64,000 nucleotides of DNA from Mariprofundus sp. KV (lineage in GTDB: Bacteria > Pseudomonadota > Zetaproteobacteria > Mariprofundales > Mariprofundaceae), in NCBI RefSeq assembly GCF_013387475.1, contig NZ_VWNB01000007.1:1-64000 (forward strand), written 5' to 3'. Of the stretch, positions 17,606 through 30,848 are shown piece after piece. The translations under genes and the position numbers were made by a program. Position 1 is the stretch's first letter. Each line of letters begins with the position of its first letter. The notes below the pieces were generated by a model. The model did not search any database and had not been told where the DNA came from. It worked only from the letters and a program-made list of their open reading frames with translations.

Positions 17606-17986
17606 TCAACCAATAATGAAACGGATATCTTCCCCTAACTCTTCGGGATAAAATGGCTTATTAAGCAGGTAGTAGTTTTCAAAAGCGCCTATCCGCCTTG
17701 GTGCCTCATGTGCATCAAGGTCTGTAACAAACAACACCGGTATATCTTTGTCGATACGGCGAACCTCATTGATTGTTCTTTCACCGGCATACAAACTCGA
17801 CATCACTTCACTCACCACAAGGTCAATCTCGTTGCGACATGCCGTGAACAGATGAACAGCCTGCTCGCCAGCGTTAGCCTTTAACACCCTGAAACCATCC
17901 AGACTCAATATCTCTGCAATATGCTCCAGAATCTCACTACAATCATCAATCAAAAGAACTGTCTGCTGACTCACAGGGATATCCAC
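17606..17986 (-). CDS. Stand-alone receiver domain lacking the phospho-Asp
   Basis: A 126-residue CheY-like receiver. The acidic pair (LLIDDCSE), the Thr (VLFVTDL) and the Lys (LLNKPF) are all present, but the phosphorylation site reads DLVVSEVMSS, with Glu where Asp is expected and the following MPG lost. A Glu can mimic the phosphorylated state, so the domain may be locked on or signal in another way. It starts with GTG inside the end of the CcdA-like gene (16-nt overlap) and is the last gene of the metal operon. Confidence 0.85.
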   Translation of the reverse strand: MDIPVSQQTVLLIDDCSEILEHIAEILSLDGFRVLKANAGEQAVHLFTACRNEIDLVVSEVMSSLYAGERTINEVRRIDKDIPVLFVTDLDAHEAPRRIGAFENYYLLNKPFYPEELGEDIRFIIG

Positions 17987-18612
17987 CCCATACCAACCCC
18001 GACTCCGACAAAGGCCAGCACCGATGCGCCAATCCTGGCCAGCTGCTGCTGTCTGCCTCTGAGTTGCGAGCGTATCTCACCACCGGCTCTGCCCAGACCG
18101 TAACCGAAAACAAGCTGGGGAATAACAATAGCACCGGCTCCGAAGGAGAGGCCGAGAAGCAGTCCGTAAGCGGCTGAGCCAGTTGCTGCAGATGCTGCCA
18201 TGACACCGGCCAGCGGCGCACATGGCCTCAAACCCATAGCAAAACCGATCCCGAACAGCCCTGCCCTGATCTGCTTCTGCTTGTGGCTGGCACACCCCGC
18301 CACTCTCCCCTTGCGCCACAACAGCACGGCAGAGCCGAGCAGCATGGCGGCAAAGATATAGTTGGCATGACTCATATCGAGCAGACCGACCAGTGAAGCA
18401 CCAACCAGACCCGAAACGGCAGCAAGCAGTGCATAAGCCGCCATGCGACCGAGATTAAAACGCAGCGTCTGTAGTGAGGTCTCTCTGGCTCCGATATCCT
18501 GCGCCAGCAGCATCACACCGAGTGTCGGAATACAGGTAAACATACATGCACCGGCCCCAAATGAGAGGCCGATGATGAATGTTGTCAGCATAGCGGAGAA
18601 TAGAACCTCCAC
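17971..18612 (-). CDS. CcdA/DsbD-transmembrane-like protein (UreH_2/TauE type)
   Basis: A 213-residue inner-membrane protein with six predicted helices. Cys-Pro motifs occur in two pseudo-symmetric places, GAGACMFTCIPTLG near residue 20 and GLRPCAPLAG near 130, matching the cytochrome-c-biogenesis/DsbD transmembrane family that passes thiol electrons or metals across the membrane. The frame starts with GTG; an ATG seven codons on is possible. It follows the NapH-like ferredoxin gene by two bases, which suggests a joint redox task. Confidence 0.75.
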   Translation of the reverse strand: MEVLFSAMLTTFIIGLSFGAGACMFTCIPTLGVMLLAQDIGARETSLQTLRFNLGRMAAYALLAAVSGLVGASLVGLLDMSHANYIFAAMLLGSAVLLWRKGRVAGCASHKQKQIRAGLFGIGFAMGLRPCAPLAGVMAASAATGSAAYGLLLGLSFGAGAIVIPQLVFGYGLGRAGGEIRSQLRGRQQQLARIGASVLAFVGVGVGMGWISL

Positions 18613-18614
18613 GT

Positions 18615-19643
18615 TTAATCCTTTTTAACACGGCGAGATGGCTTCTGCTTGCCCTCCCACCTCTTCTGCGCCTTGTTGCGTTCTTTAAAATACGCGGGAT
18701 CAGAGACCTTAATCGGAATCACCGCATACTTCAGTGCCATCACACCCTTATCCGGGCAGAACTCCACACAGCGTCCACACAGGGTGCAGTCGGGCATAAG
18801 AATATCCTTCTCTTTGGATGTATGAATCTCACGAATATCCATCGGGCAGGCTTTGGCACAGAGGCCACACTTATCACAGCGGCTGGTATAGTTCTTCACA
18901 AGCTTAACCAGGCCAACCTTCTTAAACAGCGCATGCATCGCCAGCAGCGGGCAGATGCGGCAGAAGGGCTGACGCATGGTCAGTGAGAGCACAAGAATCA
19001 GACCAAACAACAGATCGGCAATAATCGAGAGGATCATATAACCGGTTGATGAGGTATCGATATAGAGCTGGTTAAGCTGCCCTGCAAAGAGTGAGGTCAG
19101 TATCCGGCTCGGACAGATCTGGCAGAAGGGATCGCCCAGTTCATGGCCGACAAAACCGAGACCCGAAGCCAGTGGCAAGAGAATCACCAACAGCCCCAGC
19201 ATCAGCCATTTGGCAGGCCTGATGCGATCCACCAGATTATCATCCAGCGACTCAGTGCGATTCAGCCGCAGCTTCTGACCGATCATACCCAGCACCTCCT
19301 GGAAGAAGCCCAGCGGGCAGAGCCAGCCACAGAAAGCCTTATTCAACAAGATGAAAAGAAGAAGGAAGGTTCCCAGGGTTGTCAGGATAGGCAGAAGCAG
19401 ACTGAGCGTGAACTTTCCGGCCGCAATTGCAGGCCCTAAACCATGTCCGAGCTGATGCTGCAGTGGAATCAACACACAGTAGTCTGCTGTTTTGGCATCA
19501 TAAGCACAGGAGAGCACCGGAAATGCACCCGACAACTTATCGGCAGAGTAGAAGCCTACAAAGACTGAGCCATAGACAAGAAACAGAAAGGCCAGCAGCT
19601 GAACAAATTTGCGGATGACCGATAAATTTTTCCAGATAGGCAT
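18615..19643 (-). CDS. NapH/CcoG-like membrane polyferredoxin
   Basis: A 342-residue membrane iron-sulfur protein. It has about five transmembrane helices, the NapH-family cysteine motifs FCGWLCPLGFFQE, FCQICPSR and FCRICPLLA, then two 4Fe-4S motifs, CDKCGLCAKACP and CTLCGRCVEFCP, near residues 255-305. The family moves electrons from quinol or ferredoxin across the inner membrane (NapH, NosR, CcoG). In a TonB-receptor operon it may supply electrons to reduce an incoming metal. Start ATG overlaps the previous stop as TAATG with GGGAG upstream. Confidence 0.85.
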   Translation of the reverse strand: MPIWKNLSVIRKFVQLLAFLFLVYGSVFVGFYSADKLSGAFPVLSCAYDAKTADYCVLIPLQHQLGHGLGPAIAAGKFTLSLLLPILTTLGTFLLLFILLNKAFCGWLCPLGFFQEVLGMIGQKLRLNRTESLDDNLVDRIRPAKWLMLGLLVILLPLASGLGFVGHELGDPFCQICPSRILTSLFAGQLNQLYIDTSSTGYMILSIIADLLFGLILVLSLTMRQPFCRICPLLAMHALFKKVGLVKLVKNYTSRCDKCGLCAKACPMDIREIHTSKEKDILMPDCTLCGRCVEFCPDKGVMALKYAVIPIKVSDPAYFKERNKAQKRWEGKQKPSRRVKKD

Positions 19644-20455
19644 TACTTTTTCTCCCTGCGACGACGCTTTCTCAAGGTAATAAAACCACCAATCAACATC
19701 CCGCCACCAATGACCGCCAGACCGAGCTCTGTAGGCTGCCAGTGCTCAGGGTTGATGTGATAGCCATATGAAAAGGTGGTAATATGTCTCTCTGTGCCGA
19801 CATGATGCTCAGCGGTTAGTACAAATTCAGACGGTGGATTTGCCATACGGCCGGGTTTCTCGTAGGTAAAATCCTCAGGCAGCGGGATAGTCACCAGACC
19901 TTCGGTATTGGCTGCAAATTCAGCACTGCTACCATTGCCTGTCTGCATGTGCACCTTCGCTCCGGCAAGCGGCTCACCCTGAAAACGTACGATGAACTGT
20001 GCATCTGTATTGGAGTAGTAACGCCAGTGCTCTCGCGCCAATGGAGCTGGTTCTATCTCCAGCGCCGATTTCTCGTGCCCTATCAATAGTGATGGTGACA
20101 CGCCGGATGGTTTGCCGTTCATATAGATATAACGAACAGCTGACTCATGCAGATCACCCACGCTACGTTTAGCTACCAGCGCATGATAATTGCCGGTGCC
20201 CATCGCTTTCACACTGACCCTGCCATGCTCCAGCGTTAAGGGTTGAACAACCTTGCTCGGGCTCATCAGCTGGACCTCTGCACCTTCACCAGCATGCAAC
20301 AGGAACGGTTTGCCTGCATGGCGATCATGGCCACCGTGTCCACCATGACCATGACTCTTCTCTTTCGGAGCCGGGGACCAGTGCATCGCTGCCTCTGCGT
20401 TGATGCTGAAAAGAGCCACGGCAAGCGTGGCCCCTATCCATATTTCCCGCTTCAC
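19643..20455 (-). CDS. Periplasmic His-rich metal-binding protein (DUF4198-like)
   Basis: A 270-residue protein with a signal peptide, then a His-rich stretch (HGHGGHGGHDRHAGK, about residues 35-50), two beta-sandwich-like halves, and one C-terminal helix followed by RKRRRREKK that anchors it in the inner membrane. It resembles the DUF4198/NikM type of metal-uptake accessory proteins, which I infer from the fold pattern and context, not a firm match. The GTG start overlaps the Spy-like stop as GTGA. Confidence 0.65.
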   Translation of the reverse strand: MKREIWIGATLAVALFSINAEAAMHWSPAPKEKSHGHGGHGGHDRHAGKPFLLHAGEGAEVQLMSPSKVVQPLTLEHGRVSVKAMGTGNYHALVAKRSVGDLHESAVRYIYMNGKPSGVSPSLLIGHEKSALEIEPAPLAREHWRYYSNTDAQFIVRFQGEPLAGAKVHMQTGNGSSAEFAANTEGLVTIPLPEDFTYEKPGRMANPPSEFVLTAEHHVGTERHITTFSYGYHINPEHWQPTELGLAVIGGGMLIGGFITLRKRRRREKK

Positions 20456-20988
20456 TTCTTAGCACCCATGGCTTTTTTGCCTGCATAGAGGCTGGATTTC
20501 TGCTCATCAGTGAGCAGGCGTGAAGCTTTTACCGAGGCCATCAGGTTGGCTTCGTATTTGGCTGCACGCAGCTCACCCATGCGTTGGCTATAGGCTTTGA
20601 TATCACTATCTTTCAAGTTGCCGCCGTGCAGTTTGCCACGCAATGCAGCCACTTCGATCTGAGCTTCGGCATGGGCTTTGGCAGCACCGGTTTCGGCCGC
20701 TACCAGCAGTTCACCGATCTGTTTGCGCTGCTTATCACTCAAAGCGATGGCATCGGCCTTCTTGAGAATCTTGCGAATATAGTCAGGGCTGTTGCCCGGA
20801 ATGTTATGGTGCCCCGATTTCTTATAACCCGATCCTTTGGCATCGCCTTGCACACAATTTTCTGCCTTGGCGCCCTTAAAATCGCAGCTTTCGGATGCAC
20901 ATGGCTTACCACCACAGGCCAGCGCCGGGCTTGAGAGCAGCAGTGCAGTCGCTGCCGCGATAATCAGCTGTTTCATCTGTTTGTTCAT
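20452..20988 (-). CDS. Cys-rich Spy/CpxP-like periplasmic protein
   Basis: A 178-residue exported protein. After a signal peptide there is a cysteine cluster (LACGGKPCASESCDF and a later NCVQG), then a helical region with LSDKQRKQI and LTDEQKSSL, the paired LTxxQ-type motifs of the Spy/CpxP/CnrX family of stress and metal sensors or chaperones. The Cys cluster suggests copper or other soft-metal binding. It follows the TonB receptor by 24 nt and has GAGGGAG ahead of the ATG. Confidence 0.75.
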   Translation of the reverse strand: MNKQMKQLIIAAATALLLSSPALACGGKPCASESCDFKGAKAENCVQGDAKGSGYKKSGHHNIPGNSPDYIRKILKKADAIALSDKQRKQIGELLVAAETGAAKAHAEAQIEVAALRGKLHGGNLKDSDIKAYSQRMGELRAAKYEANLMASVKASRLLTDEQKSSLYAGKKAMGAKK

Positions 20989-21012: not shown

Positions 21013-23220
21013 TTAAAATGTTGCGGTTACGCCAGCTGTCCAGCGGCGACCGGGATTGACCACGATAGAGAGGTCTTCTGCGTTGTAGGAAAAATCGCCA
21101 TTGCTGTCGTAATAACCGCGTGCGGTGTTGTAGACGGTGCGATCCAGCACGTTATCCATGCGTCCAAACAGCGACCACTTCACACCGTTATTGGCTCCTG
21201 TTGTGAAATCGTAGTTGGCTACCAGATCGAACAGGGTATGGCCTCCGATCTTCTCCTGATTAATCTCATCGGCAAAATAGGAGGATTGCGCATTCATCTC
21301 ACCGGTGAGGGTGAAGCCTGCGAACGGGTTAATCCGTGCAGCCAGAAAGATTTTATGCTTGGGAGTACGCGGCACTGTTTTACCGCTATTATTGTAGGTC
21401 ACGATTCTGCTTGCACCCGGTGCCGGACTGAAGCGGTTGCCCAACAGCAGGTTGTAGTTGTCATAGCGGGTGAATTTCGCATCCAACAGTGTGTAGGCCA
21501 GATCCATCGAAAAGAGCTGCTGCTGATCAGTTTTGACAGCCAGTTCAACACCGCGATTGCGCATACCACCGATATTCTGGTACTGATCGGTTACACCGGT
21601 TGCAGGATTGGCATACTGACCGGCCACATTGAGGATAAAATCCTTACGATCAATCTGGAAAGCAGCGATATCCCACTCAATACCCCCAATTAGATCGAGC
21701 TTTCCACGCATACCTACCTCAAAGTTATAGGCCTGCTCAGGTTTCAGGTTCGGATTCGCAGCAACACCGCCGGTCAAATTGATTGTGCCTGCAAATAGCT
21801 GCTGAATAGTCGGAGCCCTGAAGCCAGTTGAGACATTCGTATAGAGTGAGGCAGAATCACTGAAATCATAATTCAGACCAGCACGCCACGAGCCGACATT
21901 AAAATTCTTACTCAGAGATGCAGCTGCAGCAGCTGGAAGATAGTCATCATAGCTCAGTTTCATATGGTCATAACGACCATTCACGGTTGCTGATAGTGCA
22001 TCGGTCACGGCAAATTTCAGCTCACCATAAGTTGCATACATGCGCTCTTTTGTCTTGTCATCTGCAGTAACCGTACCTGCAGTAACACCGGAGAAGGGGC
22101 TTGGACTGGCGCGATGGCTCTGCAGAATTGTCACTTTGTTCTTGTAGCTGTTATCGCGCAGATCAACGGCACCCAACCAGCCAAGCGTCTCACTGCTGCC
22201 GCGCCACTCACCCTTGATGCCACGCTGAACCTGTTTGTAATCATTGCCGTTGGCATAGGCGTTCACATCAGTCACAGCCGCGCCTGTCGTGCTGTAACGA
22301 ATAGGAGAGGACCAGTATTTGGTGTGATCACCAAACTGGTAGATATTGAGCATCAGGTTACTGGTCTCAGAGATATCGTTGGCATAGGTGAGATAGAACT
22401 TACCCAGATCAACATTATAGTGACGGGCAAAATCACGGCCATTTACACTGGTAGGATCCAGTGCGGCCTGAGAAATGCCTGTAACCGTACCGTGGCTATC
22501 CTTGAAACGTTTGGCCACCTCCCAGCCAAATGTCAGATCACTGCTGTCAGAGAGATAACCCTGCAGCTTTCCATTCAGATAATCGGCTTTGTAATCACCC
22601 TGATAATAGTAACCTTTTGCATCCCTGCGACTCACCTGCACATGACCGGACACTTTATCGGCTGCAAAACCGGCACGTGCCAAACCACGCTTATAACCAA
22701 AGCTTCCCGCTTCGCCAGAAAGCTGACCACCGGCCATTTTAGCACCGCGTTTGGTGGTAATGATCACCGCACCGGCCAGAGCATCATCACCAAAGAGATA
22801 AGAGGCACCACCCTTAATCACTTTGATCGATTCGATGTCATCCATATTGATATTCACGCGTCCTGTGCGCTCAAATACCGGCACACCATCAATCACCACG
22901 GCCACACCCGGCTTCTCGCCCATAAAGCGCTGATTTTCCACACCACGGATATGAATTTTCAGTGAATCCTGACTCTGTAATTCAGCCGTCACACCCGGAA
23001 TAGCATCAAGGATCTGTTTGATGTTCTCGGCATGTGCCTCTTCCACCTTGTTGCCTGAAATCACAGAGATATTGGAGGGTTCGCCGCGTTTGGACTCAAA
23101 GCGGTCATCAATGGTGGTGGAGTCCACCCGCATCAACCCCATATCTTCGGCTCCTGCCATATGCGGCATCATCAGCATTGTTGCTGCCGCTACCACCTGC
23201 GTTCTAATTTTCAAATTCAT
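21013..23220 (-). CDS. TonB-dependent outer-membrane receptor
   Basis: A 735-residue receptor. A Met-rich signal peptide precedes the plug domain (about residues 45-165), recognisable by ILDAIPGVTAELQSQDSLKIHIRG and VVIDGVPVF with IESIKVIKGGASYLFGDDALAG (shown in pieces). A 22-strand barrel ends with RRWTAGVTATF, closing on Phe. The substrate is unknown; the downstream metal-handling genes point to a metal or metal complex. Three tandem RegA-like boxes lie 65-109 bp upstream, with a CATAAA hexamer 21 nt beyond the last. It heads a six-gene operon. Confidence 0.9.
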   Translation of the reverse strand: MNLKIRTQVVAAATMLMMPHMAGAEDMGLMRVDSTTIDDRFESKRGEPSNISVISGNKVEEAHAENIKQILDAIPGVTAELQSQDSLKIHIRGVENQRFMGEKPGVAVVIDGVPVFERTGRVNINMDDIESIKVIKGGASYLFGDDALAGAVIITTKRGAKMAGGQLSGEAGSFGYKRGLARAGFAADKVSGHVQVSRRDAKGYYYQGDYKADYLNGKLQGYLSDSSDLTFGWEVAKRFKDSHGTVTGISQAALDPTSVNGRDFARHYNVDLGKFYLTYANDISETSNLMLNIYQFGDHTKYWSSPIRYSTTGAAVTDVNAYANGNDYKQVQRGIKGEWRGSSETLGWLGAVDLRDNSYKNKVTILQSHRASPSPFSGVTAGTVTADDKTKERMYATYGELKFAVTDALSATVNGRYDHMKLSYDDYLPAAAAASLSKNFNVGSWRAGLNYDFSDSASLYTNVSTGFRAPTIQQLFAGTINLTGGVAANPNLKPEQAYNFEVGMRGKLDLIGGIEWDIAAFQIDRKDFILNVAGQYANPATGVTDQYQNIGGMRNRGVELAVKTDQQQLFSMDLAYTLLDAKFTRYDNYNLLLGNRFSPAPGASRIVTYNNSGKTVPRTPKHKIFLAARINPFAGFTLTGEMNAQSSYFADEINQEKIGGHTLFDLVANYDFTTGANNGVKWSLFGRMDNVLDRTVYNTARGYYDSNGDFSYNAEDLSIVVNPGRRWTAGVTATF

Positions 23221-23284
23221 CTCTTCTCCCCTGTCTTATTTCAAAAAACAGGCGGATTTTATGAGCCGAAGTAAATGTAGAAAT

Positions 23285-23329
23285 TAGGCAAAACGACGCA
23301 GGGCAAATTGTCGCGCGACAGATTGACGC
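23285..23329 (-). promoter_or_regulatory. Three tandem RegA-like boxes, TonB receptor operon
   Basis: Three contiguous 15-mers at 23285, 23300 and 23315 read on the minus strand as GCGTCGTTTTGCCTA, GCGACAATTTGCCCT and GCGTCAATCTGTCGC. They are close to the RegR box GNGRCRTTNNGNCGC as I recall it from Bradyrhizobium. A CATAAA(AT) -10-like hexamer follows the proximal box by 21 nt. Confidence 0.6.
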
Positions 23330-23395
23330 ACCCCTGCTTCACGATCAAATGCATTTACTGGAAACAGGAGACTGTAAGAGGAACCCGAATAAAAA

Positions 23396-24091
23396 TCAGG
23401 ATGCATCCAGATTAAAGCGCATGCGAAACTCGCACTCAAGCGGGCAGTCGATCGTCGCTGGAGGCAAAGGCAACGGCAACGCCTTCTCTACAGCCTTTCT
23501 GGCTGCTGAAACCAGCATGGTTGGACCATCTTCAACCACCAGCTGGTGCGTTGAACCATCTGGAAGCAGCTTGAAACTGATATGCACTTCACCCTCAATT
23601 CCGCGCCGGCGAGCTGCTTTCGGATACCATTTATGCTGTTCGATATGTGCCATCACCTCGGTGAGGTAGCGTTCGGTTTCTCGCTTGATCAACCCCTGAT
23701 CAATCTGTGGTGTGGCTGCCGCAGCTACGGCCATCGGCTGCGCAACGACTACCGGTTGTGGTTCACTGATCTGCTCTTGAACCACCTCTTCTACAGGCTC
23801 AGCGACCTTCTTACGCACCTTTTTTTTCACCACTTTCTTCACCGGCTCCGGCGTCGGTTCCACAATCTTTTTCTCTTTCGGTTTGATCTCAGGAACAACT
23901 TCCGGTGTCACAACTGGCTCTACAGCCGGTGTTAAAAAACTCAGGCGTGTGACTGACTGTGTCGGCGGCTGCACAATACCTGCCGGTGCCCCGCCAAAAC
24001 TGGCAAACAGAGCCCCGTGCAGCAGCAGAGAGAGGCCGATTGCGCCATAACGAACCACTCTGTTTGCAGGTGCTACCACTACCGGACTCAT
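23396..24091 (-). CDS. tonB: TonB energy-transducing protein
   Basis: A 231-residue TonB. One N-terminal membrane helix (about 13-32), a Pro/Glu/Lys-rich periplasmic spacer (about 45-110, with repeated KKVVKKKVRKKV), and a C-terminal TonB domain with KWYPKAARRRGIEGEVHISF. TonB carries proton-motive energy from ExbBD to the outer-membrane receptors on both sides of it. I start at MSPVVVAP, one base after the exbD stop; the longer frame has no ribosome site. Confidence 0.9.
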   Translation of the reverse strand: MSPVVVAPANRVVRYGAIGLSLLLHGALFASFGGAPAGIVQPPTQSVTRLSFLTPAVEPVVTPEVVPEIKPKEKKIVEPTPEPVKKVVKKKVRKKVAEPVEEVVQEQISEPQPVVVAQPMAVAAAATPQIDQGLIKRETERYLTEVMAHIEQHKWYPKAARRRGIEGEVHISFKLLPDGSTHQLVVEDGPTMLVSAARKAVEKALPLPLPPATIDCPLECEFRMRFNLDAS

Positions 24092-24092
24092 G

Positions 24093-24503
24093 TTAATCCC
24101 GATCCGGCTGCTCAGTGACAATATCGACACCCTCTGCACCAGCCAGGCGCGCTGCATCAATCACCTTCACCGAATCACCAAAACCGGCATCTTTGTCACC
24201 ACGAATCAGCACACGCTTCTCATCTCTTGCAGCAAGCAGGGGCCGCAAGTACGCCTGCAGCGCATCAATCGCGACCTGCTGATCTGCGACCATGATCTGG
24301 CCTGTGCCGGTCAGCTTGATCTCAAGCGGTTTCTGATCATCAAGTGATAGCGCACTTTCTGCTTCCGGCAACTCAATCGGCAGCCCCTGATCCTTCACAA
24401 AATGGGCGGTGAGCATAAAAAAGACCAGCAGCAGAAAAACGATATCAATCAGCGGTGTCAGGTTCGGTGCCTGACCACTCCTGCGTGCCCCCTCAAATTG
24501 CAT
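24093..24503 (-). CDS. exbD: ExbD biopolymer transport protein
   Basis: A 136-residue ExbD with the membrane helix LTPLIDIVFLLLVFFML, including the essential Asp, and a periplasmic domain with VLIRGDKDAGFGDSVKVID. It works with ExbB as the proton-driven motor for TonB. The ATG start MQFEGARR overlaps exbB by 11 nt; a GTG 13 codons earlier is less likely because family members begin close to the LTPLIDIVF helix. Confidence 0.9.
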   Translation of the reverse strand: MQFEGARRSGQAPNLTPLIDIVFLLLVFFMLTAHFVKDQGLPIELPEAESALSLDDQKPLEIKLTGTGQIMVADQQVAIDALQAYLRPLLAARDEKRVLIRGDKDAGFGDSVKVIDAARLAGAEGVDIVTEQPDRD

Positions 24504-25122
24504 GGGCCAGCGAGTCCCTGTGTTTAACCTGGTTATCTTCACTGTTCAGCGCGATATGCGGCAACTGCTCGATCACCATCGAAGCGACCCGCTGCATCGA
24601 CTTGGCACGTTTATCAACCAACCCTTCAAGAAAGTGCAGTAGAAACAGAACAGGGATTGCCACGGCCAGCCCTGCGCCGGTTGTTACCATCGCTTCCCAA
24701 ATGCCACCAGCCAGCACCATCGCATCGACCTTGCCTCCGGCAGCCTCAATCACCTGAAAGGCTTTGATCATGCCGGTGATCGTGCCAAACAGGCCTAATA
24801 GCGGCGCTGTATTACCCAGCCAGGCCAGCGTACGCAGTCCGGACTCCATACGCGCCAGTTGATCTGATCCAATGCGTGAAGCCACACGTACCAGATCCTT
24901 CACACCTTCACTGGCAGCCTGTTGCACACCCATAGCAATCGCCGCTTCCGGTGAAATGCGTTTACCACTGCTCTGATAGAGGGAGTCCAGATCACCACTG
25001 ACTTTGGGCAACAGATTGAGATGAATCAGTCGCTCGACCACAATGGCAACCGCCACCACGGAGTAACCGAGCAGCACCCACATCACCGGGCCACCTTTAT
25101 CTATCAGCGTGGTAATTTCCAT
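24493..25122 (-). CDS. exbB: ExbB/MotA/TolQ-family proton channel
   Basis: A 209-residue ExbB-like protein. It has an N-terminal helix (PVMWVLLGYSVVAVAIVV) and the paired pore helices near residues 100-130 and 145-175, with LGLFGTITGMIKAF and ALVTTG-like AMVTTGAGLAVAIPVL typical of the family. It forms the pentameric motor shell around ExbD. The AAGGGGAGAG ribosome site and part of the start codon are inside a perfect 14-bp inverted repeat, so translation is probably regulated. Confidence 0.92.
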   Translation of the reverse strand: MEITTLIDKGGPVMWVLLGYSVVAVAIVVERLIHLNLLPKVSGDLDSLYQSSGKRISPEAAIAMGVQQAASEGVKDLVRVASRIGSDQLARMESGLRTLAWLGNTAPLLGLFGTITGMIKAFQVIEAAGGKVDAMVLAGGIWEAMVTTGAGLAVAIPVLFLLHFLEGLVDKRAKSMQRVASMVIEQLPHIALNSEDNQVKHRDSLAHAI

Positions 25123-25164
25123 AAACTCTCCCCTTATTCAAAACTGGATGAGGGGAGAGTTTAT
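25121..25164 (-). promoter_or_regulatory. Hairpin burying the exbB ribosome site and start
   Basis: ATAAACTCTCCCCT at 25121-25134 and AGGGGAGAGTTTAT at 25151-25164 are perfect reverse complements separated by 16 nt. In the mRNA the stem pairs the whole Shine-Dalgarno stretch and two bases of the AUG of exbB. Confidence 0.7.
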
Positions 25165-25186
25165 AAACTGATCAGAAACTATACAT

Positions 25187-25201
25187 GGGGCAAATTGTCG
25201 C
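25187..25201 (-). promoter_or_regulatory. RegA-like box, exbB operon
   Basis: The minus strand reads GCGACAATTTGCCCC, followed after 21 nt by TATAAA. The geometry is the same as in front of the TonB receptor operon and regB. Confidence 0.6.
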
Positions 25202-25297
25202 AGTAATATCCAACGATGGTTTGTACGACACTCCCAACGACAACAGCCAAAAACATCTGTTATTTAAAAAGCTATTGAGTATTGATGTTTATTACTA

Positions 25298-27571
25298 CTA
25301 CATCTTGAGAGTCATACCGACATAGATCGAACGCCCCATACCCGGAACAGCTACACCCCAGGGTACATCTGCAGCGGACATGGTCTTACCCTGGCCTGTA
25401 TAAGCGCCGCCGAGTGGATCGTTATAGAATTTATTAAGCAGGTTCTCAATACCGGCATCAACACGGAGATGTTTCCACTCGTAGCTGCCGCGCAGATTCA
25501 GCAGCCCGTATCCTGCGGTCGCAACCTCATTTCTAATCTGTGAAACCTTTGTTTTGGCAGCGACCATCTCAGCTTCGAGACTACTGGTCCAGCCGCCCAG
25601 ACGGTGCGTAAGGCCAAGTCGGCCGTTCAATGGCATAATGTTGTAAAGGTTATCATTGGTAGTCTTGTTCTTGCCGCGCACGTAATTCAAAATACCAGAG
25701 GCCGAGAGGCTGCCAAAGCTACCATCTTCAACCAGAGTGAGTTGACTTGAGAGATCAACACCATGAATTTCAGCCAACTTGTTGGCAAACTGCAGATACA
25801 CAAACCCTGTCGTAGCAGTCTGGTTAGCCGCACCACAGTTGGCATTGGCTGAAGAGCAACGGTTTACATCGATATAGTCTTTAACACGACTGAAGTATGG
25901 CGTGACCTTTACCTCCCACTGCTTCTCCTCAGCATCATGAAAATCAAAGGTTGCACTGATGGTGTGAGAGGTCTCCGGTTTCAGATTGAGATTACCCACA
26001 TATCCATTACCGTCGCCAGCCATATTGATCATGCGCATGGCCATGCCGCCGGTTGACCATGTATAACGCTCGTAGAGGTTAGGCGAACGGGTTTTCATAC
26101 CATAACCAAACTCAAGCGTTGCGTTCTCTGACGGTGTAAAACGAACCAGAGCAGTCAGATCAATGTTATTGTCGGTTTTTTTGCGGTTAGCGGCATTAAA
26201 CGCAGCGGCTTCAGCGGCATAGGTGGCGTTGTAGCCCTGCACGGTGCTGGTATCCATGCTAACGCGCTCATAGCGCACGCCGAGCTGCGTCAACCAGCGC
26301 GAATTCCACTGCGACTCCCACTCACCAAACAGGGCCAAACGGTCACGCTTACCACCGTTAATATTCCAGAAGGTGTCAGGCCACATGCCTTTTCCGGATG
26401 GCTCCCACCAGTCATCCAGGCGGTACTGCTGGCCCTCTGTACCCACTCTGAGCAACTTGCCTGCTGAAAGTGCGATATTCGCCTTAACACTACCGCCGAT
26501 ATTCAGACCTTCGGTATCCATTGGCATGCCCGCTGCACAGCCCATCATGCCGGCAGAAGGGGTACAGGCAACGCCATCATTTGGAGCTGCAGGCATCGCA
26601 TTACCATACCAATAGAGCTTATCATCACCAAACTGCATTGCATGCTTGGTATTTTCATAGTAGGCGCGTGCTTCCAGTTCACCCCAGCTATATTGACCCT
26701 CATAACGAAGGTTTGCCTGCTTACTATCGTTTCCGGTCATATCCATGCGCTGATTTGCCCAGCCCTGATAAGGAATATCCTGTAGCCCCAGTTTCACATC
26801 AACCTGATGGTCACCATTAAGCACAGCCATCGCAATCGACTGATTGGTCGTTTTGTACATGGTGGAGCCAACCTCATCTGCTGCCAGCCAACCCCTGCCT
26901 GCTGCTGCAAGACCTGCCGCTTTGAAATCGCCTCCGGCTTTGTAATCATCACCCTTGGCTGTGGAACCACGGTAGCTCAAGCTGACGTTTTCACTGGCCA
27001 CTGTAGCAGATGCATTTGCACCCTGAACATTGCCATTGCTACGATAGAATGCGCCAATCTCGCCTTTGGTCAGAATTCCCTCGCCAGGCTTGGCAAACTC
27101 AGAATCTTCGGAATCCACGATGATGGTACCGCCGATGCTGTCGCCACCAATACTGACCGGCGTAATACCGGCAAAAACCATTGCACTGCCAACATTGCTC
27201 GGATCGACATATGAGAGCGCCGGATTCATGTGATTACCACATGCTGAGATAAGATCCATACCATCGACTTTGATACGCAGGCGATCATCGGCCATGCCAT
27301 GAATGGCAGGCAGATTGGAAACGGCACCACCGCGCTGAAGATTTAGCCCCGGCGTGTTTTTCAGCAGGCTTGCTGCATCACTGGTAGCCGGTGCCATCGA
27401 TTTCAACTCTTCCTGACTAACGATCTCGCAATGTGGCGCCTGTGTATCGGTCAGGGCCGAGCCGGTGACATCGATGACTGGCAGCGCTGCGTCCTCAGCA
27501 TGCGCAATGCCGTGGCTATAGCCTGCAATCAGAGCGGCCAGAAAAGCCTGCCGATAGTGTGTATGATTCAT
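25298..27571 (-). CDS. NosA/OprC-type copper TonB-dependent receptor
   Basis: A 757-residue receptor with a signal peptide, a plug (about residues 35-170) and a barrel ending VGMTLKM. The plug contains MDLISACGNHMNPALSYVDP, the Cys-His-Met segment characteristic of the NosA/OprC copper receptors, and the barrel loops are rich in Met and His (for example STGGMAMRMINMAGDG, MGCAAGMPM). I infer uptake of copper. Two tandem RegA-like boxes lie 86-115 bp upstream. It is monocistronic, between the exbB operon and regA. The gene symbol is left blank because oprC and nosA cannot be separated by eye. Confidence 0.85.
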   Translation of the reverse strand: MNHTHYRQAFLAALIAGYSHGIAHAEDAALPVIDVTGSALTDTQAPHCEIVSQEELKSMAPATSDAASLLKNTPGLNLQRGGAVSNLPAIHGMADDRLRIKVDGMDLISACGNHMNPALSYVDPSNVGSAMVFAGITPVSIGGDSIGGTIIVDSEDSEFAKPGEGILTKGEIGAFYRSNGNVQGANASATVASENVSLSYRGSTAKGDDYKAGGDFKAAGLAAAGRGWLAADEVGSTMYKTTNQSIAMAVLNGDHQVDVKLGLQDIPYQGWANQRMDMTGNDSKQANLRYEGQYSWGELEARAYYENTKHAMQFGDDKLYWYGNAMPAAPNDGVACTPSAGMMGCAAGMPMDTEGLNIGGSVKANIALSAGKLLRVGTEGQQYRLDDWWEPSGKGMWPDTFWNINGGKRDRLALFGEWESQWNSRWLTQLGVRYERVSMDTSTVQGYNATYAAEAAAFNAANRKKTDNNIDLTALVRFTPSENATLEFGYGMKTRSPNLYERYTWSTGGMAMRMINMAGDGNGYVGNLNLKPETSHTISATFDFHDAEEKQWEVKVTPYFSRVKDYIDVNRCSSANANCGAANQTATTGFVYLQFANKLAEIHGVDLSSQLTLVEDGSFGSLSASGILNYVRGKNKTTNDNLYNIMPLNGRLGLTHRLGGWTSSLEAEMVAAKTKVSQIRNEVATAGYGLLNLRGSYEWKHLRVDAGIENLLNKFYNDPLGGAYTGQGKTMSAADVPWGVAVPGMGRSIYVGMTLKM

Positions 27572-27656
27572 GATTGTTTCCCCTGCTTTGTCTTTGAAAG
27601 AGATATCTAAAACGTAAGTGGGCGCGAAACATACTGACGAGAGAAAATTTTAAGAT

Positions 27657-27686
27657 AGGGCAAATTGCCGCGCGACATATTGCCGC
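27657..27686 (-). promoter_or_regulatory. Two tandem RegA-like boxes, copper receptor gene
   Basis: Contiguous 15-mers at 27657 and 27672 read on the minus strand GCGGCAATTTGCCCT and GCGGCAATATGTCGC. A TATGTT hexamer lies 23 nt beyond the proximal box. Confidence 0.6.
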
Positions 27687-27732
27687 AGTCAGAAGGACTA
27701 TTGTTCTATGGCGATCTCAATGAGCAACCAAT

Positions 27733-27833
27733 GGGGGACAGGCCTACTCTTAGAAAACCACAAAACTGCGGGGTCTAACTACGGGGTCAGGTCTACTTTT
27801 ATAACTACGGGGTCAGGTCTACTTTTATACCGC
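27733..27833. repeat. Short direct repeats, GGGGTCAGGTCTAC type
   Basis: ACGGGGTCAGGTCTACTTTT occurs at 27781 and again at 27807 (26-bp period). A degenerate relative, GGGGACAGGCCTACTCTTA, lies at about 27734. Such short repeats often accompany IS200-like REP-associated transposases; no transposase gene is present here. Confidence 0.5.
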
Positions 27834-27853
27834 CAAAAACCCATATTAACACT

Positions 27854-28399
27854 TCAGGATTTTGAGGGGCGTTTGGCCAGCTTCCGTTGCAGAGTGCGGC
27901 GGTGCATGCTGAGTCGTCTGGCGGTCTCGGAGATATTGCCATCACACTCCATCAGCACCTTCTGGATATGTTCCCACTCCAGGCGTCTGGTCGACATCGG
28001 CTGTTCGGTAACCTCGGCAGTGGCATCACCGCTGTTTTTCTGTAAGGCGGCGACCACTTCATCAGCATCAGCGGGTTTGGCGAGATAGTGCGTCGCACCG
28101 AGTTTGATCGCTTCCACTGCTGTGGCAATCGAGGCGTAACCCGTTAACACAACGATACGGGTGTGTTCATCCAGCTGATGCAGCTTCTCGACCAGCACCA
28201 GGCCGGAATCACCCGGCATGCTCAGATCGACCACGGCATATTCAGGTGCCGCATCACCAATCAGTTCAATGGCATCAGCGACATTGTGCGATACCTGCAC
28301 GGCAAAACCGCGTTTCTCCAGCGCAGAGGAGAGGATGCGACAGAAGAGTTCATCATCATCAACCAGCAGCAGATTCGGCAGATCCCTGTTTGCTTCCAT
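27854..28399 (-). CDS. regA: Redox response regulator RegA/PrrA/ActR
   Basis: A 181-residue regulator with the RegA architecture: a receiver (about 8-122; acidic LLVDDDE, phospho-Asp58 in YAVVDLSMPG, Lys in YLAKPA) and a short C-terminal Fis-type helix-turn-helix, GNISETARRLSMHRRTLQRK. This output domain is nearly invariant across the RegA/PrrA/ActR/RegR group, which activates or represses respiration, nitrogen fixation and related genes by redox state. It follows regB by two bases. Boxes resembling its site lie in front of every transcription unit of the island. Confidence 0.93.
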   Translation of the reverse strand: MEANRDLPNLLLVDDDELFCRILSSALEKRGFAVQVSHNVADAIELIGDAAPEYAVVDLSMPGDSGLVLVEKLHQLDEHTRIVVLTGYASIATAVEAIKLGATHYLAKPADADEVVAALQKNSGDATAEVTEQPMSTRRLEWEHIQKVLMECDGNISETARRLSMHRRTLQRKLAKRPSKS

Positions 28400-28401
28400 A
28401 G

Positions 28402-29709
28402 CTACTCCGTTTTCAACTTCTGCAGTGGCAAGCGGATATTCACAAGTGCCCCACCCTCTGCATGATTGCTGATACTCATCTCTCCGCCAATACGGCGCAC
28501 CACCTCACTGGCCAGATAGAAGCCCAGCCCGTGGCCATCTTTCTTGGTGGTGAAGAAGGGTTTGCCCAAAGCCTCCAGCGCAGCAGGACTCAAACCTTCG
28601 CCAAAATCGCGAATATCAAGATTCAGTTCAACGGCAGACCACGCTGCATTGAGTTCAATGCTATCCGGAGAAGCATCGGCAGCATTATTTAACACGTTGA
28701 TTACAGCCTGATTCAGGGTCTCATCAACAACAATGGTCGGTGCCGGTTCAATCCCTTTCAGAGAGATCGCTATCGAGGTTGCCGGATGCAGCTCCTGCCA
28801 GCGTGCTATGCAGTGGTTCAGGCAGCTCTTCACATCTTCGCTATGGCCACTCTCAGCCTTCATCTGTCCGGCACTGGCACTGATCTGGCCCAAGGTCGCC
28901 TTACAGCGATCTACCTGCGAGCGCAGAATAATAATGTTCTCCAGCAGTTCGGGTTGCTGCCGATACTCCTTTTCCATCTCTTTGGTCAGTACAGCCATCG
29001 TCGCCAGCGGTGTGCCCAGCTCATGTGCAGCACCTGCGGCCAGTGTACCGAGAGAGACCATGTGCTCATCGCGCAGATTCTTCTCACGTGCTTCGGCCAG
29101 TTTCTGATCACGCTGGCGCAGCGCCTCAGCCATGGAGACCACAAAAAAGAGGATCAAGCCGACCGCCAGTAGAAAGCTGAACCACATACCCAGCACATGC
29201 AGGCTGAAATCACCGGCAGGGGAAGCACCGTGGCCGGCATGAGCACCATGATTATGGCCTGTCATCTCCTGCGTCAGCGGCACATTGATCAGCATAAGCA
29301 GTGAGTAGCAACCCAATGTGACCGCTGCCATACCCCAGACATAACGCTTGGGCAGGGTTGCCGCGACAATCACCAGTGGCAGAAGAAACAGCGAAACAAA
29401 CGGATTACTGGAGCCACCGGCAAAATAGAGCAGCCCGGCAAGGGCCAGTACATCCACAACCAGATGCAGGAAAAATTCATTGGCAGATGCCGATGGGGTT
29501 TTGCGAAGACGCAACCAGAGGTATGCGTTAAACAGCGTATAGAGGCCAATCACTGAAAGCATATAGAGCAGAGGCAACTCAACTGCCAGTCCATACACAG
29601 CCAGACCAACGGCAGCCAGTTCACTTGCAATCACAGCACTTCTGAACACAAACAACCGTTTCAGGTTATAGGTACCCACCATCTCCTCAATGGAGCCTTG
29701 AATAAACAT
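28402..29709 (-). CDS. regB: Redox sensor kinase RegB/PrrB
   Basis: A 435-residue membrane histidine kinase with six helices. It carries three RegB hallmarks: the quinone-site motif GGSSNPF (about 98-104), the H-box HELGTPLATM with His229, and a Cys (QVDRC) exactly 40 residues after that His, the spacing of the redox-active Cys265 to His225 in Rhodobacter capsulatus RegB. An inter-helix loop holds the His-rich stretch HNHGAHAGHG (about 151-160). I start at MFIQGS, which has AGAGG upstream; a longer frame adds seven codons. Confidence 0.93.
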   Translation of the reverse strand: MFIQGSIEEMVGTYNLKRLFVFRSAVIASELAAVGLAVYGLAVELPLLYMLSVIGLYTLFNAYLWLRLRKTPSASANEFFLHLVVDVLALAGLLYFAGGSSNPFVSLFLLPLVIVAATLPKRYVWGMAAVTLGCYSLLMLINVPLTQEMTGHNHGAHAGHGASPAGDFSLHVLGMWFSFLLAVGLILFFVVSMAEALRQRDQKLAEAREKNLRDEHMVSLGTLAAGAAHELGTPLATMAVLTKEMEKEYRQQPELLENIIILRSQVDRCKATLGQISASAGQMKAESGHSEDVKSCLNHCIARWQELHPATSIAISLKGIEPAPTIVVDETLNQAVINVLNNAADASPDSIELNAAWSAVELNLDIRDFGEGLSPAALEALGKPFFTTKKDGHGLGFYLASEVVRRIGGEMSISNHAEGGALVNIRLPLQKLKTE

Positions 29710-29829
29710 TGTTGCCTCTTCGGTTCGCATGAGAAGTTAAGCTAGGGGCTGAATAGTGATCAAACAAGCCGCGCTTCTCTGCGCCATTTTATGACTGCGA
29801 AAGGTATATGAATCAGAAAACATCGGAGT

Positions 29830-29844
29830 GTGACAAATTGTCGC
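29830..29844 (-). promoter_or_regulatory. RegA-like box, regBA operon
   Basis: The minus strand reads GCGACAATTTGTCAC, followed after 21 nt by TATACC. This suggests autoregulation of regBA. Confidence 0.6.
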
Positions 29845-29884
29845 ATTTTCACAGCCTTTCTTCCCTTTAAGGATACGCCAAATC

Positions 29885-29943
29885 AGGGTGCTGTCGCTGC
29901 CGTGGAGGTCTCTTCCCCGGGGTGCCCGGTTCGGCAGCTCCCT
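29885..29943. ncRNA. Unassigned GC-rich foldable element
   Basis: Outer pairs AGGG/CCCT enclose GCTGCCG (29896-29902) and CGGCAGC (29932-29938), a perfect 7-bp stem. Inside is CCGGG-GTG-CCCGG (29917-29929), giving a compact branched fold on either strand. I cannot match it to a riboswitch or small RNA class that I know. It lies between the csp terminator and the regB promoter region. Confidence 0.35.
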
Positions 29944-29981
29944 GGTACTCTCACTTTCAGTAACTCTTCTAGACAAAGAAA

Positions 29982-30007
29982 AAGCCCGACCTTTTCAGGC
30001 CGGGCTT
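29982..30007 (-). terminator. Rho-independent terminator after csp
   Basis: On the minus strand AAGCCCGGCC pairs with GGTCGGGCTT around a 6-nt loop, followed by TTTCTTTG. It lies 60 bp beyond the csp stop. Confidence 0.8.
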
Positions 30008-30066
30008 ACAGCGAAGATCAGACTTTTGGAATGTCCGGACTTTTTCAATATTGTAGCTGAAACCAA

Positions 30067-30570
30067 TCAGGCTTTCAGAAACCTCTTACACTCCTTGATA
30101 CATTCAGCACATGCATCAGCACATGCCTTGCAGGTAGAGTGTTTCTTTTCATGTTTGCGGCATTCTTTCTCACAATCGCCACACATCTTGATACTGAGTT
30201 CACACATCTCCTTCATATGCGCAGATTCAAGCGTGGCCAGCTTTGCATGCGCCGCACAAAAGGCTCCTGTCTCCATCACAATCCTCGCGCAGTCGGCCAT
30301 TGCCGTATCACCCGCCTTAAACTCGATCAGGCAATGGTGTATACAGTCATCACCGGCACGCATACACTCATGAAGAAGATCTATCATTTTCGCATGTTTA
30401 CTGCCAGTTGAATGGTTATGATGCATATTGTGCTCACCAGCCGCAAAAGCCTTACTGATTCCACCCATTGCTGCAGTCGATGCCAAAGCACCAAGTCCAA
30501 GTGCGCCAGCGCTTTTAAGCATGGTCCGACGATCCATATTCGGGCCTTCCATCAATTCTTTACCGTTCAT
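30067..30570 (-). CDS. Tat-exported four-helix copper-storage protein (Csp1-like)
   Basis: A 167-residue protein. The N-terminus has a twin-arginine signal (MDRRTMLKSAG, then a hydrophobic stretch to SKAFAAG), so it is exported folded by Tat, whose genes are at 47.7-49.0 kb. The mature part is a helical bundle with about 13 Cys facing inward, in CxxxC spacing (CMRAGDDCIHHC, CGDCEKECRKHEKK, CKACADACAECIKEC), plus a His/Met-rich start (HNMHHNHSTG). This is the pattern of Csp1 copper stores. GGAGGT precedes the ATG. A perfect RegA-like palindrome sits at its promoter. Confidence 0.88.
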   Translation of the reverse strand: MNGKELMEGPNMDRRTMLKSAGALGLGALASTAAMGGISKAFAAGEHNMHHNHSTGSKHAKMIDLLHECMRAGDDCIHHCLIEFKAGDTAMADCARIVMETGAFCAAHAKLATLESAHMKEMCELSIKMCGDCEKECRKHEKKHSTCKACADACAECIKECKRFLKA

Positions 30571-30667
30571 TTTTTACACCTCCGAAATCGCACCAAGGCG
30601 ATAGTCTTGTATTTCCCCGGGATGTGTATTGATCTACCAATGCAAATATAGCATGCTCATTCTGGGA

Positions 30668-30686
30668 GTGCGACATTTTGTCGCAC
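30668..30686 (-). promoter_or_regulatory. Palindromic RegA-like box, csp promoter
   Basis: GTGCGACATTTTGTCGCAC has 8-bp perfect arms and a TTT spacer. Its 15-bp core GCGACATTTTGTCGC, as read on the plus strand, fits GNGRCRTTNNGNCGC with no mismatch. On the minus strand a TATATT hexamer follows the core by 19 nt. Confidence 0.7.
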
Positions 30687-30721
30687 CTTTTCGCAACCCA
30701 TTCCAAAAGCCACAAAAAAAA

Positions 30722-30748
30722 AAGCCCGGCCTGAGTGGGGCCGGGCTT
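30722..30748 (-). terminator. Rho-independent terminator after dapB
   Basis: AAGCCCGGCC and GGCCGGGCTT form a 10-bp stem, followed on the minus strand by a run of ten T residues (30712-30721). It ends the hrcA-grpE-dnaK-dnaJ-dapB transcript. Confidence 0.85.
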
Positions 30749-30833
30749 AATACGATGGAAACTTTTGGAGAGAAAACATCGCAATACGAGTTGGTATATG
30801 CGAAGGCTAATCCCAACATCAACCCTCGAAAAC

Positions 30834-30848
30834 AGGGCAAAATGTCGC
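30834..30848 (-). promoter_or_regulatory. Orphan RegA-like box behind dapB
   Basis: The minus strand reads GCGACATTTTGCCCT. No -10-like hexamer lies at the distance seen for the other boxes, and the dapB terminator lies between it and csp. It may be a distal csp site or a chance copy. Confidence 0.4.

Follow-up and report, generated by a model that had tools for sequence, protein, structure and literature searches.

A putative RegB/RegA regulon with copper cargo and a clear promoter rule in a Mariprofundus genome

Genes and boxes around regBA

The window analyzed here is a stretch of 64,000 nucleotides from Mariprofundus sp. KV, part of a 2.53-Mb genome in 28 contigs (G000:C26). It contains a gene cluster around the two-component pair regB and regA, in which near-identical 15-bp boxes, very probably sites of the response regulator RegA, precede genes for predicted copper uptake and storage. 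The named organisms with a related RegB are Mariprofundus micogutta (83% identity) and other Mariprofundaceae, and because of these RegB relatives the source genome is placed as a Zetaproteobacterium of or near Mariprofundus. The genes lie on the minus strand in the order dapB, csp, regB, regA, a copper TonB-dependent receptor gene, exbB-exbD-tonB and a second TonB-dependent receptor gene, here termed receptor 1 (TBDT1). The csp gene (30067..30570) encodes a predicted Tat-exported copper storage protein of the Csp1 family, regB (28402..29730) a redox histidine kinase, and regA (27854..28399) a response regulator with a Fis-type helix-turn-helix (HTH), no second RegA being found in the genome at E<=1e-20. 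The copper receptor gene (25298..27571) is followed by exbB (24493..25122, MotA_ExbB match), exbD (24093..24542, ExbD Pfam match) and tonB (23396..24091, TonB_C match). Receptor 1 (21013..23220), whose substrate is unproven, heads an apparent operon with LTXXQ, DUF4198, Fer4/NapH-like and DsbD_2 genes (20988-17971). A tandem direct repeat, ACTACGGGGTCAGGTCTACTTTTATA, is present in two copies downstream of regA, ahead of the boxes of the copper receptor gene (about 27780-27830).

A search of both strands for the core GCGACAATTTGTCGC, allowing at most three mismatches, returned 11 matches in the window, whereas shuffled sequences gave 1.75 on average and at most 6; no window box is an exact copy of the core. 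The excess over chance is clear, and the boxes are real. A preliminary description of this DNA had placed such boxes upstream of exbB, both TonB receptor genes, regB and csp, in three, two or one copies, and all of them were located, in those numbers, on the minus strand. Three abutting predicted RegA boxes precede receptor 1, with GCGTCAATCTGTCGC as the distal (23315..23329), GCGACAATTTGCCCT as the middle (23300..23314) and GCGTCGTTTTGCCTA as the promoter-proximal copy (23285..23299). Two precede the copper receptor gene, GCGGCAATTTGCCCT proximally (27657..27671) and GCGGCAATATGTCGC distally (27672..27686), and single predicted boxes stand before exbB (GCGACAATTTGCCCC, 25187..25201), regB (GCGACAATTTGTCAC, 29830..29844) and csp (GCGACAAAATGTCGC, 30670..30684). 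Another box, GCGACATTTTGCCCT (30834..30848), falls within the span of the preliminary description but had been given no gene there; it belongs to a predicted small-RNA promoter. In leave-one-out scoring the promoter-proximal copy at 23285 is weak (7.5), and the other members of the window box set reach 14.4-21.1. With a matrix made from the window sites only, eight boxes score 18.3-22.2 and the copy at 23285 scores 13.5, the next-best position of the window standing at 12.9. The gene-facing orientation gives the better box score in 43 of 46 promoters.

RegA as the likely regulator and the arrangement of its promoters

The assignment of the boxes to RegA in the preliminary description was checked against an external matrix built, without the Mariprofundus genome, from 33 sequences identified by chromatin immunoprecipitation sequencing (ChIP-seq) of Rhodobacter capsulatus RegA (PMC5359404, Table 2). 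Over the 63,986 positions of the window, this matrix ranks the distal receptor 1 box first, the csp box second, the distal copper-receptor box third, and the regB and exbB boxes sixth and seventh; the remaining copies rank 29 (the middle copy at receptor 1) to 181. Conversely, the 33 ChIP sequences score a mean of +4.8 on the Mariprofundus matrix. Shuffling their letters lowers this to -15.5 (sd 1.2) and plain reversal, without complementing, to -21.2; no other register does better than -11.6. The boxes share with the RegA ChIP-seq peaks a 15-bp inverted-repeat site with GCG, and the R. capsulatus ChIP sequence at cydA, GTGACAATTTGTCCC, is one base off the copper-receptor box of a related genome (G014). 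The HTH of the window RegA is near-identical to that of the PrrA structure 1umq (RRLSMHRRTLQR / RRLNMHRRTLQR) and, together with the receiver domain and the Cys that precedes the HTH, a residue important in RegA (PMC9147068), is what the broad RegB/RegA family displays. RegB likewise carries a GGxxNPF quinone motif (GGSSNPF), an H-box (HELGTPLAT), a redox-box Cys (RCK, in VDRCK) and a HATPase domain. The NCBI equivalog families ActR/PrrA/RegA and ActS/PrrB/RegB are the best matches of the two proteins, at 219 and 246 bits; because these values fall below the respective cut-offs of 250 and 350 bits, the pair is assigned to the broad RegB/RegA family and not to the equivalogs. On this evidence, the window boxes are very probably RegA sites.

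The same boxes were sought in regBA neighborhoods of 32 loci from Zetaproteobacteria and 23 loci from other classes of the phylum, a strong box being defined by a score of at least 17. Strong boxes were found at 27 of the 32 zetaproteobacterial loci and at 2 of the 23 outside the class; as the matrix was derived chiefly from window sites, counts from close relatives are partly dependent on it, and the distant loci and the ChIP comparison are independent. Boxes precede regB, exbB, TonB receptor genes and csp even where RegB identity has fallen to 40-60% and gene order has changed. The presence of a box before regB in most relatives also bears out the autoregulation of regBA that had been proposed, at least as a prediction from sequence. 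In a genus-level comparison, genomes with RegA hold 8.1 boxes and those without it 4.2 (p 0.01; overall p 0.04), a weak difference owing to the incompleteness of many RegA-negative genomes and to the frequency of GCGGCA..TGCC in coding sequence. Some genomes scored as RegA-negative keep a few boxes, such as the one before ccoN in G055 (86% complete), as might be seen if another regulator bound the boxes and their nearness to regBA were incidental. The exact-register match to the ChIP matrix, the PrrA-like HTH, the presence of boxes ahead of regB and their near absence from regBA loci outside the Zetaproteobacteria all argue against such a regulator, which we regard as highly improbable. At one of the two box-bearing loci outside the class, a perfect palindromic box, GCGACAATATGTCGC, precedes an OprC-like receptor gene adjoining regBA in G066 (L290 12577), where RegB has a His-rich loop; this is apparently a separate instance of the link between box, copper receptor and regBA.

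The position of the boxes relative to the promoter was compared across 49 box promoters of this genome and related ones, taking TANNNT as the -10 element and counting its distance from the box. TANNNT starts 22-24 nucleotides (nt) after the box in 43 of the 49 (21 at 23 nt and 21 at 24 nt), against a mean of 3.4 and a maximum of 11 in 5000 shuffles, and it is found in 40 of 46 promoters on the proper side of the box as opposed to 5 of 46 on the opposite side. In the window, the spacer is 23 nt for receptor 1 (TAAAAT, 23256..23261), exbB (TAAACT, 25158..25163), the copper receptor (TATGTT, 27628..27633) and regB (TACCTT, 29801..29806), all on the minus strand, and 24 nt for the small-RNA promoter (TAGCCT, followed by TCGC, 30804..30809, minus strand). 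TCGC often follows the -10 element. Distances of 21 nt for exbB, regB and receptor 1, 19 nt for csp and 23 nt for the copper receptor had been reported in the preliminary description; the arithmetic was right, but for exbB, regB and receptor 1 the chosen hexamers lay two bases too near the box, and the 49-promoter comparison brings all three to the spacing of the copper receptor. The csp promoter, with a -10-like TATATT 19 nt from its box (30645..30650, minus strand), is a spacing exception.

With the hexamer placed at -12 to -7, the box would extend from about -50 to -36, directly against the -35 element, as is typical of class II activators. Of the 43 promoters having the spaced -10, 42 share only 1-4 of 6 bases with TTGACA at the -35 element. 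Because their -35 hexamers are poor, these promoters look activator-dependent, and from this and the box position we infer that RegA activates them rather than represses them. Boxes adjoining the -35 region would also suit a repressor that blocks it until copper or oxygen becomes limiting; one site elsewhere in the genome (C4:50451) adjoins a consensus promoter, and repressed genes, ccoN included, occur among the R. capsulatus RegA ChIP targets. Against repression stand the poor -35 elements and the strict 23-24 nt spacing, which is typical of polymerase contact, and it is an unlikely account of these promoters.

Copper cargo, the RegB sensor and a predicted small RNA

The metal handled by the cluster had been thought likely to be copper, and the residues of two of its proteins agree. 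The receptor encoded at 25298 aligns with OprC, whose copper site is CxxxM-HxM (PMC8610252), and has CGNHM in the plug and HAM in the barrel at the positions of these ligands. Among 13 aligned receptors beside regBA, the Met and the HxM are present in 13 of 13 and the Cys in 5 of 13. The TIGR01778 TonB-copper equivalog model scores the copper receptor at 121.8 bits, below its cut-off of 472 bits. The csp product scores 118.8 bits with TIGR04401 (cut-off 100) and aligns to Csp1 structures as a relative of the Cys-rich four-helix bundle (5fjd, E 1e-14). Judged by these signatures, the cargo of the cluster is copper. Ordinary siderophore uptake, with iron as the metal, would be suggested by receptor 1, whose best scores are with siderophore and heme receptor families, all below cut-offs, and by the service of ExbBD-TonB to iron in most bacteria. 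The OprC-type site of the other receptor, the Csp1 protein and the link to the cbb3 oxidase described below speak against iron, and receptor 1 has no structural relative at E<=1e-20, which we also count against it; iron is thus very improbable as the metal of the cluster. The receptor 1 operon, which comprises LTXXQ, DUF4198, NapH-like Fe-S and DsbD_2 membrane proteins (17971-20988), looks like a periplasmic module for the reduction or handling of a metal.

Since RegB retains both GGSSNPF and the redox Cys, redox sensing is taken as its default function. The loop between transmembrane segments TM5 and TM6 of the window RegB is rich in His (TGHNHGAHAGHG) and is placed in the periplasm because TM6 leads into the cytoplasmic kinase. 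In the main zetaproteobacterial clade this loop has a mean of 24 residues with 5.5 His+Met, compared with 14 residues and 1.3 His+Met outside the class (p 1e-7, with relatedness ignored); loop sequences vary (HNHGAHAGHG, MKHMAGMAMDMH, HMGNMNHAAMNH), and their composition is conserved across Mariprofundaceae. It is conceivable that the His/Met-rich loop binds copper and switches the kinase, so that the regulon would answer to copper supply instead of, or besides, quinone redox state. The length and composition of the loop point this way, as do the His-rich loops at both outside loci with a box (PDHASHHVDMS, PHDHSKH), but the retention of GGxxNPF and the redox Cys, as in redox-sensing RegB, and the short loops of divergent zetaproteobacterial RegBs that adjoin copper receptors (mean 2.7 His+Met) oppose it. 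Copper sensing by RegB is accordingly a doubtful proposition at present, for which the loop is a lead and not a proof.

Between dapB and csp (30714-30848), the box at 30834 and its spaced -10 are followed by an intrinsic terminator without an intervening open reading frame (ORF). The predicted RegA-controlled small RNA would be about 84 nt long (30714..30797, minus strand), with a hairpin exposing a UUUUCUCUCC loop and then the terminator, which is strong and lies about 85 nt beyond the -10 element (30722..30748, minus strand); much of the fold z of -5.76 comes from the terminator. G014 (L159) has the RNA at 89% identity over 99 nt, without csp at the same place, and homologs among 74 genomes of the family occur in this genome and G014 only. 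Boxes with a spaced -10 and a terminator, without an ORF but with another sequence, are present in G004 and G013 (L160 box 10566, L165 box 10732). No Rfam family reached its gathering score (best, 32.5 against 50 for RF02278 and 29.6 against 41 for suhB), and target prediction by duplex energy gave no gain over shuffling (best -28.0, shuffled-RNA mean -29.4). Taken together, the lone box at 30834 probably drives this small RNA rather than belonging to csp. In G022 (L291 8638), a perfect palindromic box, GCGACAATTTGTCGC, is followed at 24 nt by TAGCGT, and for 350 bp in that direction no gene is annotated; a further RegA-controlled noncoding transcript is possible there.

Extent of the regulon and relation to known systems

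Sites across the genome were collected by pattern searches and then scored with the matrix, so that sites far from those patterns may escape. A first genome-wide scan at three mismatches gave 63 hits against 119 in the reversed control, and because of this deficit loose matching is uninformative. Beyond the window, only three sites equal the better boxes, at 18-20 on the window-only matrix. One (C4:53252) precedes ccoN of a cbb3 oxidase, another (C4:50451) a 63-codon ORF with a DsbD_2 gene, and the third (C25:99379) the gene for a PAS histidine kinase. Matches inside genes (e.g. C5:3955, C5:13379, C21:2523) were dismissed as chance. All three outside sites stand in front of a gene in the right orientation, but a random genome should hold about two by chance, and a global regulon is not shown. 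At the stringency used, RegA looks like a small, local, pathway-specific regulator and not a global one. The ccoN box is kept in G009, G055 and G008, and the R. capsulatus RegA ChIP targets include both ccoN and a PAS sensor gene.

In the mechanism that we favor, one RegA dimer, or a row of two or three, would occupy a site at about -50 to -36 abutting a weak -35 element and would aid main-sigma RNA polymerase at a TANNNT -10 located 23-24 nt downstream, in a class II-type activation. Its targets would be the regBA operon itself, the copper receptor, the second TonB receptor operon, ExbB-ExbD-TonB, Csp as the copper store of the periplasm and, on another contig, the genes of the cbb3 oxidase. 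Such a circuit would couple copper import and buffering to the building of the copper-containing, low-oxygen cbb3 oxidase, with positive feedback on RegBA. We assign this model as a whole a probability of roughly 0.78. Several observations weigh against it. High-scoring sites are few genome-wide, with three outside the window, albeit all before genes, where about two are expected by chance; the ccoN box is confined to close relatives, most relatives lacking it before their ccoN lineage; the csp promoter breaks the spacing rule, having no TANNNT at 22-24 nt; and the R. capsulatus ccoN peak accompanies repression in the ChIP table. To these is added the box at C4:50451 (L036 3952-4975), 2.8 kb from the ccoN box, which abuts a consensus TTGACA-16-TATAAT promoter of the 63-codon ORF (HSHQCGC) and the DsbD_2 gene; because of its consensus hexamers this promoter, unlike the other box promoters, should need no activator.

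The system resembles RegB/RegA of R. capsulatus (the PrrBA, ActSR, RegSR, RoxSR family) in its kinase/regulator pair, GGxxNPF motif, redox Cys, HTH with its Cys and 15-bp site, and in having the cbb3 oxidase and also a gene for a PAS sensor among its likely targets. It differs in that its boxes are strong, uniform and few, whereas R. capsulatus sites are degenerate and many, and in its predicted targets, TonB copper uptake and Csp, and its His/Met-rich RegB loop. In Group 1 RegB/RegA systems senC is cotranscribed with regA and/or regB (PMC9147068); here the neighbors of regBA are csp and the copper receptor gene, with senC not adjoining. In Bradyrhizobium, RegR of RegSR controls the copper homeostasis genes copCAB under anoxia (PMC4064962) and a role of RegSR under copper limitation has been proposed (PMC10457146), but half-site spacing is variable and TonB receptor, ExbBD and Csp targets are not described there. 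OprC of Pseudomonas aeruginosa shares the CxxxM-HxM copper site (PMC8610252). CrtA of Bordetella shares the link to respiratory oxidases (PMC12914433), but is controlled by the upstream ORF CruR, in contrast to the predicted transcriptional RegA box of the Mariprofundus receptor. PcrZ and PcrX of Rhodobacter sphaeroides are small RNAs under PrrA, the RegA counterpart (PMC8307010); a sequence relation to them is not shown, and the Mariprofundus RNA sits in a copper locus. The preliminary description had known of no RegBA regulon built around TonB-dependent copper uptake, and none with TonB copper uptake, ExbBD or Csp was found in the open-access literature, subscription papers lying outside the search. 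That novelty is nonetheless only partial, since RegR control of copCAB (PMC4064962) and the binding of copper by R. capsulatus RegA (PMC9147068) already link RegBA to copper.

The sequence evidence gives good in silico support to a form of the known RegBA system that stands out for its copper cargo and its unusually clear promoter rule. Speculatively, and with little likelihood in its full form, zetaproteobacterial RegB/RegA could be a dedicated copper-economy regulator. RegB would then sense both quinone redox state and, through its His/Met-rich loop, periplasmic copper, and RegA would switch on copper import and storage along with the cbb3 oxidase and a small RNA adjusting other transcripts to copper supply. 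The regulation of outer-membrane copper receptors is an acknowledged gap, nothing being known of the down-regulation of oprC under copper stress according to the authors of PMC8610252. In other species RegA sites have been too degenerate to define, with no strong consensus for PrrA (PMC4263372) and no RegA motif found in Acidithiobacillus ferrooxidans (PMC5506826). The Mariprofundus sites are crisp, conserved and rigidly spaced, which opens the promoter rule, the link to copper and autoregulation to direct testing. The promoter rule can be used for predicting RegA targets across the Zetaproteobacteria, and the RegA-copper circuit would explain how copper is supplied to the oxygen-respiring enzyme of the marine, iron-oxidizing Mariprofundus.

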